A stretch of DNA of 64,000 nt from Parafrankia discariae (lineage in GTDB: Bacteria; Actinomycetota; Actinomycetes; Frankiales; Frankiaceae), in NCBI RefSeq assembly GCF_000373365.1, contig NZ_KB891230.1:217975-281974 (forward strand), in the 5' to 3' direction. A program made the position numbers and the translations under genes. The notes beneath the pieces were generated by a model. It searched no databases and was not told the DNA's origin. It saw nothing but the letters and a program-made list of their open reading frames with translations. Positions 37,779-59,275 of the stretch are shown piece after piece; positions within the stretch are counted from its first letter, which is position 1; the number at the start of each line of letters is the position of its first letter.

Positions 37779-37932
37779 TTATCCACATCCTCCTGTGGAC
37801 AACCTGTTGGTAACGAGCGAGTTTCTGGGGAACGCCTCGGGACAGGCGGCAGCGACGTTGTGGATGACGGCGTCATAACCGCCCAGAACCGCAGCGCCAG
37901 TAGGACTACAGGGACGACACACCTGTGGACAA
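37779..37932. promoter_or_regulatory. DnaA boxes upstream of dnaB
   Basis: A perfect TTATCCACA (37779-37787) and a reverse box TGTGGACAA (37794-37802) are 6 bp apart; a further TGTGGACAA lies at 37924-37932. They sit in the otherwise gene-free 37462-38154 region upstream of the dnaB start. They may link dnaB transcription to DnaA or help titrate DnaA. Confidence 0.75.
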
Positions 37933-48695: not shown

Positions 48696-49376
48696 ATGTT
48701 GGAGCTGGCGGTGCTCGCGCTCCTGTCGGAGAGCCCGATGCACGGCTACGAGCTGCGCAAGCGGCTCGCCGCCGTTCTCGGCTCGTTCCACCGCTTCAGC
48801 TACGGGTCGCTGTACCCGTGCCTGCGCCGCCTGCAGGCCTCGGGGTACGTGACGGCGGACGACGTCGGCGCGGCCACCCGGCTGGGTGGCCGCAGCCGGG
48901 TCGTCTACACCCTCACCGGCGAGGGCAAGGAAAAGCTCGCGGAGCTGCTGGGCGAAGGTGGGCCGTCCTCATGGGAGGACGAGATGTTCGGCGTCCGCTT
49001 CGCCTTCTTCGCCAAGACCGACGCGGCGGTGCGGCTGCGGATCCTCGAGGGGCGGCGCGGCCGGCTCGAGGAGCGTGGGGAGAAGGTGCGTTCGGCGCTG
49101 ACCCGCACCACGAAGCGGCTCGACTCCTACACCCTCGAGCTGCAACGACACGGCCTCGAGTCGGTCGAGCGCGAGGTCCGGTGGCTCAGCGAGCTGATCG
49201 AGACCGAACGGGCACAGACGCCCGGCTCGGCCCGCGGGGCACAGGTGTTGTCCACATCATCCACAGAGTTGTCCACAGGTTCGTCCACAGCCGGGGCGGG
49301 GCGGGACGAGGCGGTGGGCGGCCCGGAGCACGATGACGAGGGCCCCGGCGGCGCCGGCCCATCCCCCGACAGCTAG
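48696..49376 (+). CDS. PadR-family transcriptional regulator
   Basis: 226 residues from the ATG at 48696, preceded by GAGAGGAGAG. The winged-helix domain (about 1-80) has LELAVLALLSESPMHGYELR, FSYGSLYPCLRRLQASGYV and RVVYTLTGEGKEKLAELLG. A helical C-terminal dimerisation domain ends near residue 172. The remaining tail of about 55 residues is low-complexity ([17 protein letters not shown]). Its DNA is an array of four DnaA-box-like 9-mers. Same position as Rv0047c next to ino1, but here co-directional and about 200 bp upstream of it. Confidence 0.92.
   Translation: MLELAVLALLSESPMHGYELRKRLAAVLGSFHRFSYGSLYPCLRRLQASGYVTADDVGAATRLGGRSRVVYTLTGEGKEKLAELLGEGGPSSWEDEMFGVRFAFFAKTDAAVRLRILEGRRGRLEERGEKVRSALTRTTKRLDSYTLELQRHGLESVEREVRWLSELIETERAQTPGSARGAQVLSTSSTELSTGSSTAGAGRDEAVGGPEHDDEGPGGAGPSPDS
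49248..49289 (+). repeat. DnaA-box-like array in the 3' coding end of padR
   Basis: Four 9-mers: TTGTCCACA (49248), TCATCCACA (49257), TTGTCCACA (49269), TCGTCCACA (49281). Spacing start-to-start is 9, 12, 12 nt, all on one strand. Two are perfect actinobacterial DnaA boxes. The last three spacings match the array at 56774-56815. Confidence 0.85.
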
Positions 49377-49580: not shown

Positions 49581-50654
49581 ATGGGTTCGGTACGTGTCGC
49601 CATCGTGGGCGTGGGCAACTGCGCCGCATCTCTCGTCCAAGGGGTCGAGTACTACCGCGACGCCGATCCCTCGGCCCAGGTCCCAGGCCTGATGCACGTC
49701 ACGGTCGGCGACTACCACGTCTCCGACCTGACCTTCGTCGCCGCGTTCGACGTGGACGCGAAGAAGGTGGGCCGTGACCTCTCCGAGGCCATCGTCGCCA
49801 GCGAGAACAACACCATCAAGATCGCGGACGTCCCGCCGCTGGGCGTGACCGTGGCCCGCGGGCACACCCTCGACGGTCTCGGCCGCTACTACCGCGAGAC
49901 GATCGACGAGTCGGACGAGGCCCCGGTCGACGTCGTGGCCACGCTGCGCGAGACCCGCGCCGACGTGCTCGTCTGCTACCTGCCGGTCGGGTCCGAGGAC
50001 GCCGCGAAGTTCTACGCCCAGTGCGCCATCGACGCGGGCGTCGGGTTCATCAACTGCCTGCCGGTCTTCATCGCCGGTGTCCCCGAGTGGGCCGAGAAGT
50101 TCCGCGCGGCGGGCGTGCCGATCGTCGGCGACGACATCAAGTCGCAGGTCGGCGCCACCATCACCCACCGGGTCATGGCGAAGCTGTTCGAGGACCGCGG
50201 CGTCGTCCTCGACCGCACGATGCAGCTCAACGTCGGCGGCAACATGGACTTCAAGAACATGCTCGAGCGGGACCGGCTGGAGTCGAAGAAGATCTCCAAG
50301 ACCCAGGCCGTCACCTCCCAGGTCTCCCACGACCTGGGCAAGGACAACGTGCACATCGGCCCGTCCGACTACGTCGCCTGGCTCGACGACCGCAAGTGGG
50401 CCTACGTCCGGCTCGAGGGCCGCGCGTTCGGCGACGTCCCGCTGAACCTGGAGTACAAGCTCGAGGTCTGGGACTCCCCCAACAGCGCCGGCGTGGTCAT
50501 CGACGCCGTCCGCTGCGCGAAGATCGCGCTGGACCGCGGCGTCGGCGGCCCGATCCTCTCCGCGTCGTCGTACTTCATGAAGTCGCCGCCGGAGCAGTAC
50601 CGCGACAACGAGGCCCGCGACAAGGTCGAGGCGTTCATCCGCGGCGAGAACTGA
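49581..50654 (+). CDS. ino1: Inositol-1-phosphate synthase
   Basis: 357 residues, the prokaryotic length. It converts glucose 6-phosphate to inositol 1-phosphate with NAD, for phosphatidylinositol and mycothiol synthesis. The NAD site [20 protein letters not shown] opens the protein; [40 protein letters not shown] and KSKTQAVTS-like [11 protein letters not shown] supply the catalytic lysines. The ATG at 49581 follows TAAGGAGCG at about 10 bp. Its substrate is also the substrate of pgi encoded elsewhere in the window. Confidence 0.97.
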
Positions 50655-56174: not shown

Positions 56175-56645
56175 ATGCCCTCCCCGCCCAGGACGCCCGG
56201 CCGCAGGCCGTTGCGCAGGGTGGAGGAGACCTCGGCCGGGGGCCTCGTGCTCGACACCGCGTCGGCCGGCGCGAACGCGGCGCTGATCGCCCGCAGGGAC
56301 AAGCGTGGCCGGTTGTTGTGGTCGCTGCCGAAGGGCCATGTCGAGCGCGACGAGACCACGGAGGAGGCCGCCGTCCGAGAGGTCGCCGAGGAGACCGGTG
56401 TGACCGGAGCGGTGCTGGGCCCGCTGGGCACGATCGACTTCTGGTTCGTCGCCGGCGAGGCGCGCGTGCACAAGACCGTCCACCACTTCCTCCTGCTCCG
56501 GACGTCGGGCGACCTGTCCGACGACGACGTCGAGGTCGCGGAGGTCGCGTGGGTCCCGCTGCCCGAGGTGGCCCGCCGGCTCGCGTACGCCGACGAACGA
56601 CGGCTGCTCGACGGGGTGCCGACGATCCTCGCCGACGCCTCGTGA
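56175..56645 (+). CDS. Nudix hydrolase (MutT4-like)
   Basis: 156 residues from the ATG at 56175 ([20 protein letters not shown]). The Nudix box is perfect ([20 protein letters not shown] then TG, matching GX5EX7REUXEEXGU). The flanks SAGGLVLDT and [11 protein letters not shown] are usual. It hydrolyses a nucleoside diphosphate-X compound; position between cca and the DUF6049-like gene matches Rv3908 (mutT4). The frame is open further upstream but the family starts here. The stop overlaps the next start (GTGA). Confidence 0.92.
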
Positions 56646-59275
56646 CCGGCCGTACCCCGTTCCGCCGGCACCGGCTGGCGGCCGCGGCGCTGCTCGGGTC
56701 CGCCGCGCTGCTCTGGCCCGGGGCCGGCGTGAGCCTGGCGAGCACGAAGCTCAATCCGCATAATCCACAGGCTTCATCCACAGTTTCCACAGGGCTGTCC
56801 ACAGAGTTGTCCACAGGATCAGCCTCATCTGTGGGAATCTCGCCGGACGGCGGGACGATCGCCCAGCCGATAACCCGGACGAACCCCGGCACAAGCGGCA
56901 CATCGAGCACGCAACAGACCACACCGGGTACCGCTGGAGCCACGAACGGGACCACGGGCCTGCCCATCGAGGTCCGCCTCACCAGCCTCGTCACCCCGAG
57001 TGCCGCCGCCCCCCAGCTCCGGATGACCGGCACGGTCGACGTGGGCGGGACGGTGCTGCCGACCGACCTCGGCGTCGTCCTCGAGGTGGGCGGCCCGTTG
57101 CGGTCCCGCGGCGAGCTCGCCCAGCTGACCAGCGGCGGCCCGCCCCCGCAGATCCGTTACTCGACGCTCGCCAGCGGGCCGCTGACCATCAGCCCCACCG
57201 CGACGACCCCCGGCCAGTTCGCCGCGCAGGCGGACGTGCCCGCGCTGTTCCGCTCGTCGACCGTGAGCGTGCGGCCGGTCCAGATCAGGATCGTCGGCCG
57301 GGTCGGCGAGCGCGCGCGGAGCACCGTCGCGTCGCTGACGACGTTCATCGTCGTCTCGCCCCCGCAGGCGGCGGCACGCACAGCGGTCGTCACCGTCCTG
57401 CCCGTCTCCAGCAAGCCCCGGCTGCGCTCGGACGGCCTGCTCACCGACGACACCCTCACCGACGAGGTCCGCGACGGCGGCCGGCTCGACGCGCTGCTCG
57501 ACCCGCTCGAGTCCACCGCCCCCGGGGCACCGCCGCCCCAGGTCGCCCTCGCGGTCGACCCCACGCTGGTACAGGCGTTGCGGCGCATGGAGGACCCGTA
57601 CCGGTACGCCTCCCCGAGTGGGGCGAGAGACGCCCCGGCCGACCCCGACGCGGGCGCCTTCCTCGACCGGATCAAGGATTTCGCGCGGCGGGGCGGCACC
57701 GTCATCGCCCTGCCCTACGGGGACACCGACCTGCCGGCGCTCGTCCGCGCCGACCAGCTCGACACGCTGCAGTACTCGGTGAACACGGGCCAGGTCGTCA
57801 TCGCCGGGCTGCTGGGCGGCGGGATCCAGAGGAGCGGCACGATCGCCTTCCCCGCCGACGGCATCGCCGACGCGCCCACCGTCGACGTGCTCGGTGCCAA
57901 CGGCGCCGGCACGGTGATCGTCGACGACCGGCTGCTGCCCGCGGCCCAGGCCGTGCGGTACACCCCGTCCGCGGCGGTCACCGTGGCGACGTCCACCGGC
58001 CAGGTCCGCGTGCTCGCGGCGGACCACCGGCTGGCCGACGCGGTCGCCGGCTACGACGGCCAGCAGCTCCCGGAGCAGGCCCTCGCCCGGTTCCGCGCCG
58101 AGCTGGCGATGATCACCGCCGAGCAGCCGAACGAGCGGGCCGCGGTGCTGGCCCTCCCGCGCGACTTCACGCCGCCCGCCGGCTGGCTCAACTCGATCCT
58201 GCGCAGCCTCGACAGCGCCTACTCCAGGCCGGTCGGCATCAGGGAGCCGTCCCCGGACGCCACCCGGCAGCGTGCCGGCCTGACCTACAACGCCGACGCG
58301 CAGAGCCGGGAGCTGCCGGTCGACTACGTGAAGGGCGTCGGGCAGATCCGCGGCGAGGTGGCCGTCCTCAGCGCGGCCTTCTGCCCGCCGACCACCATGA
58401 CCGGGCTGGGGCTGCTCAAGTGCCAGCAGGACCTGGTCGCCCCGATGAGCAACACACTGATCACAGCCCTGTCGGCGTGGTGGCGCACCGACCGGCTCGG
58501 CGGGTTCTCCCTGGCCCAGCAGGCGGACGGACAGGTCGGTGACTACCGGTCGAAGATCCGGGTCGTCGCGTCCCGGATCGTGAACCTCACCAGCAGCCGC
58601 GGGCGGGTCCCGGTGACGCTGGAGAACGGTTCTGACTGGAATGTGACCGTGGTCCTGAAACTCTCGTCCACCGACCGGGGGCGGCTCGTCTCGGCGACCG
58701 AGGTCACCCGGGTCCTCGAACCGTTCCAGAAGGACCAGTTCGAGATCGAGGTGGACGCCGAGAGCGCCGGCACCTTCCCGGTGGACATCCGGCTCGAGAC
58801 CGTCGACGGGCAGGCCGTCGGCCCGGACGCCGCCGCCCGGGTGCTGGTGCGTTCGACGGTCTACGGGGCCATCGCCACGGCGATCACGATCGGCGCGATC
58901 GGCGTGCTGATGCTGGCCGTGCTGATCCGCCTGCTGCGCAGGCTCCGCGCGCGCTCCCGCGGCGGATCGGCGGCGACAGCGGCGACGGCGACGGCGACAG
59001 CGACGACGGCGGTGGACGCGGCGGCGCCCGGGACCGGCCCGGATCCGGGCTGGCCGGAGCGGCCCGTCGACGATCCCGTGCCGGCCGGCCCCGGGCACGA
59101 TCCCTACTTCGACGGGCTGACCGCTCCCGCCGCCTACCGGGAGCGGGAGCCCACCGGCTCCCCGTACGGCCAGCCCACCGGTGGTCCCGGTGGCAGGGCG
59201 GCGGGGCCGTGGTCCGAGCGTCCCGCGGCCCCGGCCGGATCCGCGTCCCAGCCGCGGCGCCGGGACGGCCGGTGA
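56642..59275 (+). CDS. DUF6049-like large secreted/anchored protein (Rv3909-like)
   Basis: 877 residues, GTG overlapping the nudix stop. A signal peptide ([20 protein letters not shown]) is followed by a Ser/Thr-rich spacer encoded by a DnaA-box-like array, then an all-extracytoplasmic body ([40 protein letters not shown]) and one C-terminal transmembrane helix at about 742-766 ([20 protein letters not shown]). The family is always upstream of murJ in actinobacteria and probably acts in envelope assembly with it, though its role is not known. The stop overlaps the murJ start. Confidence 0.9.
56761..56815 (+). repeat. DnaA-box-like array in the 5' coding end of the DUF6049-like gene
   Basis: Five 9-mers ending in CCACA: TAATCCACA (56761), TCATCCACA (56774), GTTTCCACA (56783), CTGTCCACA (56795), TTGTCCACA (56807). 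Only the last is a perfect box. The final four are spaced 9, 12, 12 nt, as in the padR array. Confidence 0.82.

Follow-up and report, generated by a model that had tools for sequence, protein, structure and literature searches.

The window, a 64,000-nt stretch of the 7.9-Mb genome of the Frankia-like soil bacterium Parafrankia discariae (Frankiaceae), carries padR, a gene for a PadR-family regulator. The next gene downstream is ino1, which encodes myo-inositol-1-phosphate synthase; the closest named relative of its product is that of Frankia sp. QA3 (97%). We find that PadR is split into a conserved core (codons 1 to 173) and a low-complexity tail formed by its last 53 codons. Within the codons of this tail lie four 9-mers that resemble boxes for DnaA, the initiator protein of chromosome replication; two are perfect and two have one mismatch, and they are arranged head-to-tail in a single orientation. 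They follow one another as TTGTCCACA, TCATCCACA, gag, TTGTCCACA, ggt, TCGTCCACA over 42 bp (49248-49289). Start-to-start distances are 9, 12, and 12 bp, leaving no gap between boxes 1 and 2 and gaps of 3 bp thereafter. All four are in frame with padR, occupy 14 codons, and read as the peptide pattern LST-x-ST-x-LST-xx-ST, which begins 11 codons past the end of the PadR core. A previous, sequence-only reading of this DNA had described four such 9-mers, two of them perfect, in the padR tail, and we verified both their coordinates and their frame.

Features of the padR region and its companion clusters in the window. Conservation counts refer to the 19 genomes of the window's genus and Frankia.
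Feature	Position	Strand	Details
padR, PadR-family regulator	48696..49376	+	Pfam PF03551, E=1.1e-19, residues 6-83
DnaA box 1, TTGTCCACA, perfect	49248..49256	+	unchanged in 19/19
DnaA box 2, TCATCCACA, weaker	49257..49265	+	TCCACA core in 18/19
DnaA box 3, TTGTCCACA, perfect	49269..49277	+	unchanged in 18/19
DnaA box 4, TCGTCCACA, weaker	49281..49289	+	TCCACA core in 19/19; perfect TTGTCCACA in 3
ino1, myo-inositol-1-phosphate synthase	49581..50654	+	Pfam PF01658, E=1.3e-35
Second coding DnaA-box array, in the gene starting at 56642	56761..56815	+	four boxes at <=1 mismatch
Third cluster, dnaB-rplI intergenic	37779..37932		TTATCCACA(+), TTGTCCACA(-), TCATCCACA(-), TTGTCCACA(-)

Traced into the adjoining contig, the gene order is dnaB, rplI, ssb, PBP, DUF5318, padR, ino1, NUDIX, DUF6049, and then trxA, continuing with parB/A, gidB, rpmH, dnaA, oriC, dnaN, recF, gyrB, and gyrA. 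The origin (the dnaA-dnaN interval, which extrapolation of window coordinates puts at 86.6-88.5 kb) lies ~39 kb to the right of the padR array and outside the window. The earlier reading had placed the region near the predicted oriC; the array is ~39 kb away from it and not adjacent to it. The possibility that the array is oriC itself is ruled out, since it sits in padR and not in the dnaA-dnaN interval. Among the 12 genomes mapped, the start of padR is 27.9-40.4 kb from the start of dnaN, and 33-40 kb in the six that have the complete array. This is the proximity to oriC that characterizes a titration cluster.

We find the padR array in all 19 genomes searched from the window's genus (6/6) and Frankia (13/13), with constant spacing throughout. 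Two Frankia genomes depart from the pattern: box 2 is lost in one (G013), and box 3 is substituted in the other (G008), where it reads TTGCCCACA. A further Frankiaceae genus, g6, has between zero and two boxes at padR, with two perfect ones in G024. No boxes occur at padR in Pseudofrankia, whose PadR is also without the LST motif (its tail matches that of Pseudofrankia sp. BMG5.36), and the outgroup padR loci have no array. A general actinobacterial feature of padR-ino1 is ruled out, with 0 arrays among the Streptomyces, Geodermatophilaceae, and Pseudonocardiaceae loci in a set of 80; the Streptomyces genomes that we examined have no counterpart of the array at their ino1 locus. In two Streptomyces, two or three perfect boxes spaced by 14 bp (L087 5972-6008 and L107 5988-6010) appear to lie immediately 5' of a gene for a glycosyltransferase-like membrane protein, ~4 kb from ino1.

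A tree of the PadR core and Ino1 places Pseudofrankia outside a clade in which g6 is sister to the window's genus and Frankia (support of 100 for all three and 88 for the latter two, with values taken from the re-rooted Newick string). Given this topology, the simplest history is that the array arose in the common ancestor of the three genera and would have been completed before the window's genus and Frankia split. Pseudofrankia retains padR-ino1 without the array, which is therefore not essential across the family. Loss in Pseudofrankia through a shift away from oriC is ruled out: despite an inversion of the segment, padR has stayed 31-40 kb away from dnaN in this genus. Specifically, in three Pseudofrankia genomes (G028, G030, and G031), the padR, ino1, ssb, rplI, and dnaB segment is inverted relative to oriC when compared with the other three genera. 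The padR match of a genome from another group (G020 of g4; L190) has one TGA inside and a very long branch.

The padR array has two companions in the window. One is a second coding array, in the DUF6049 gene that follows NUDIX, where it follows the signal peptide and precedes the DUF6049 domain (the PF19516 match spans only residues 107-771). Like the padR array, it reads as xST, and it occupies the same place in four Frankiaceae genera (the window's genus, Frankia, g6, and Pseudofrankia). The other, the dnaB-rplI intergenic cluster, is kept in these same four, which are all the genera mapped. Both are still within ~24-62 kb of dnaN in Pseudofrankia despite the inversion. Beyond the window, several genomes of its genus have three tandem boxes past gyrA, ~11 kb from oriC on its other side (L002 15587-15619; C129:317087-317116). 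Four TCCACA units are found on another contig in 6/6 genomes of the genus (L003 1803-1841; C184:93302-93339).

DnaA bound in the padR tail might block or modulate transcription from padR into ino1, tying the supply of inositol and phosphoinositides to the cell cycle. The array precedes ino1 and shares its orientation, with 291 bp left to the ino1 start in the window, and PMC8203912 describes DnaA as doubling as a bacterial transcription factor. However, anywhere from 245 to 428 bp separate the array from the ino1 start, depending on the genome, while the distance to the end of the PadR core holds steady at 10-14 codons. Furthermore, Pseudofrankia has padR-ino1 without the array, and a second array of the same layout occurs in an unrelated gene. 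We thus consider transcriptional control unlikely, and the variable spacing disfavors the earlier suggestion that the array regulates ino1.

The identification of the 9-mers as DnaA boxes draws on both motif and geometry. TTGTCCACA is listed as a high-affinity DnaA box in Streptomyces coelicolor and Mycobacterium tuberculosis, while the Bacillus subtilis consensus is TTATCCACA (PMC4285127). The DnaA of the window genome has the usual domain IV signature, FGGRDHTTV. We surveyed 297 Actinomycetes for TTRTCCACA-NNN-TTRTCCACA and found it at 48 places in 43 genomes; the reversed-pattern control gave 0 matches in the same set. Among 30 of these tandem loci that were inspected, 17 are at dnaA (14 in flanking intergenic DNA and 3 at the coding start), 2 are beside dnaB, and 3 are in Frankiaceae padR. 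Since tandem loci are mostly at dnaA and dnaB, the padR array has the same geometry as the principal DnaA sites of Actinomycetes. Sequence and geometry together support the assignment of the padR 9-mers as DnaA boxes. The assignment rests on sequence, and the array might be the binding site of another protein, or a signal for chromosome organization or orientation, that shares TTRTCCACA. This is very unlikely, as copies of the 12-bp tandem throughout the class gather at oriC, at dnaA promoters, and upstream of dnaB, which is what DnaA predicts.

It could also be that the Ser/Thr-rich LST repeats serve the protein (for example, in phosphorylation or tethering) and that the DNA is a by-product. 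All boxes share one frame, and the LST-x-ST-x-LST-xx-ST peptide is kept in 17 of the 19 genomes of the window's genus and Frankia. Because the array peptide is conserved too, we tested its codons. Between the two genera, 46.6% of comparable four- and six-fold codons of the PadR core differ synonymously, as opposed to 2.9% for the array; the DNA is conserved beyond what the protein needs, as in a titration cluster. Nine of 10 amino acid-conserved columns in the array use a single codon, versus 7 of 40 Leu, Ser, and Thr columns in the core (Fisher P = 3.9e-5, which is indicative only, as kin genomes are non-independent). The array is frozen at rare codons, although synonyms would serve: ACA represents ~1% of Thr codons and TTG ~2% of Leu codons in the window genes. 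Third-position GC falls from 0.91 in the PadR core to 0.57 in the array. Against a protein-level function stand also the rest of the tail, which varies freely in length and sequence, the Frankia genome with the broken box 2, where the Thr codon has switched to ACC, and the Pseudofrankia PadR, which does without the motif. Such a function is nearly refuted, and we regard it as extremely improbable.

DnaA itself provides a natural control. The protein has a similar conserved LSTALST, the codons of which drift freely in the window's genus and make two boxes in g6 and in some Frankia genomes. At the dnaA coding start (e.g., L198 and L200 at position 1501, and L199 at position 278), some Frankia genomes have two perfect boxes with a 3-bp gap, encoding FLSTALSTAYG. 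The g6 genus has one perfect box plus CTGTCCACA there, and the window's genus largely keeps the peptide without boxes.

The codon tests indicate that constraint on the array acts on the DNA and not on the peptide. To the sequence-only reading, it appeared that the DNA signal, and not protein function, had shaped the PadR tail, a view that the synonymous differences and the rare ACA and TTG codons bear out. It had proposed checking whether relatives conserve the array though not the peptide; the array is in 19/19 genomes, and the peptide is conserved as well. We sought the result that it had named as refuting, genomes in which the 9-mers are lost and the peptide kept, and found none; the array-less Pseudofrankia is also without the peptide.

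The earlier reading had called chance occurrence very unlikely, and we agree that the array is not a product of chance. Significance figures count kin genomes as independent and were computed after the array was seen. TTRTCCACA sites at <=1 mismatch number 16 in the window, compared with 5.3 expected, and 0/100 shuffles reach that count. The genome-wide scan that had been proposed for TTRTCCACA clusters finds perfect boxes concentrated near oriC, with 9 of 36 within ~100 kb around it (0.46 expected). Short-gap TCCACA triplets number 13 in the whole genome and 1 in the reversed control. A neutral expansion that merely resembles DnaA boxes, conceivable where tandem TCC-ACA units can expand in frame in a low-complexity tail, has almost no probability left, since >2 boxes arise in 0 of 300,000 recodings of the array peptide with synonymous codons at genome usage, and synonymous-site conservation is greater in the array than in the PadR core, which contradicts chance.

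We favor the interpretation that the padR array is probably a conserved, oriC-proximal DnaA-titration cluster located in the coding tail of PadR. It comprises several boxes of the high-affinity type, clustered in 42 bp outside oriC. The predicted cluster sits in a low-complexity, probably disordered C-terminal tail, and its head-to-tail boxes, at a spacing of ~12 bp, would accommodate a short oligomer of DnaA. Together with the DUF6049-gene array and the cluster upstream of dnaB, it may form a group of sinks for DnaA at 30-50 kb from oriC. These loci would be copied early after initiation, so that the number of clusters would double early in the cell cycle. Because of this doubling, the sinks would bind extra DnaA and delay re-initiation. 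A titration role fits the array because the boxes are strong and share one orientation, the position is early-replicated, the clusters are redundant, and there is no fixed distance to ino1. That the DNA has been kept where harmless synonymous change was possible suggests that the array helps to control the timing of replication start. The boxes, their conservation, and their geometry are consistent with the DnaA titration proposed in the earlier reading; from analogy with known clusters, we infer DnaA binding in the cell and a titration effect on initiation. Counting against titration, two perfect boxes are few relative to the total number of DnaA sites.

There might be a broader phenomenon, which we put forward tentatively. 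Frankiaceae as a family may carry replication-control DnaA arrays in low-complexity protein segments (the PadR tail, the DUF6049 linker, and, in some genera, DnaA), always in a Ser/Thr-repeat frame. Titration sites would then have moved into coding DNA and shaped the proteins there. As a titration cluster, the padR array would clearly exemplify how a DNA signal for replication control can dictate codon and peptide choice in unrelated genes, and would add another lineage, Frankiaceae, and coding DNA to the range of DnaA-titration clusters. The sites are dense and conserved enough for a synonymous-recoding test that leaves the protein untouched. Caution is also warranted elsewhere: where low-complexity LST repeats are conserved close to an origin, they may represent DNA signals and not protein motifs. 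Our literature search found no paper naming both DnaA boxes and Frankia.

For coding DNA, the contrasting case is rplB of B. subtilis, where DnaA binds boxes in the reading frame in vitro while binding is undetectable in the cell, with transcription as a possible cause (PMC4447404). This is the main caution for a titration reading of the padR array. To our knowledge, an IHF of the Escherichia coli type is not expected in actinobacteria. The E. coli datA locus is, like the padR array, a DnaA-box cluster outside oriC, and lowers initiation potential; unlike the array, it is non-coding and depends on an IHF site for its stimulation of DnaA-ATP hydrolysis (PMC5742627). Its boxes also differ from those of the array in number and spacing. 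DARS1 and DARS2 of E. coli are also DnaA-box clusters outside oriC. The DARS core comprises three DnaA boxes, of which box I faces the other way from boxes II and III; a DARS-like site, another of the earlier proposals, is ruled out by the four padR boxes all being on the + strand. DARS loci are intergenic and lie between oriC and terC (PMC5742627), whereas the padR array is intragenic, 39 kb away from oriC, and made up of four direct repeats.

In B. subtilis, several redundant DnaA-box clusters are present outside oriC, and their joint removal leads to early initiation, according to PMC5295017 (citing Okumura et al. 2012). The Frankiaceae clusters are similar in that several lie near, and outside, oriC; they differ in phylum and box consensus, and embedding in a low-complexity protein tail is particular to those described here. 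The DnaA-box clusters of S. coelicolor are said to have been named D78, H24, and H69 by Smulczyk-Krawczyszyn and colleagues in 2006. As in Frankiaceae, they comprise DnaA boxes around oriC in an actinobacterial host, and such non-oriC clusters are reported to repress untimely initiation (cited in PMC5742627). Unlike in S. coelicolor, two of the three oriC-proximal clusters found here lie in coding sequence. Thus, an oriC-proximal DnaA-box cluster is of a known kind, and what is new is its retention inside a coding tail.
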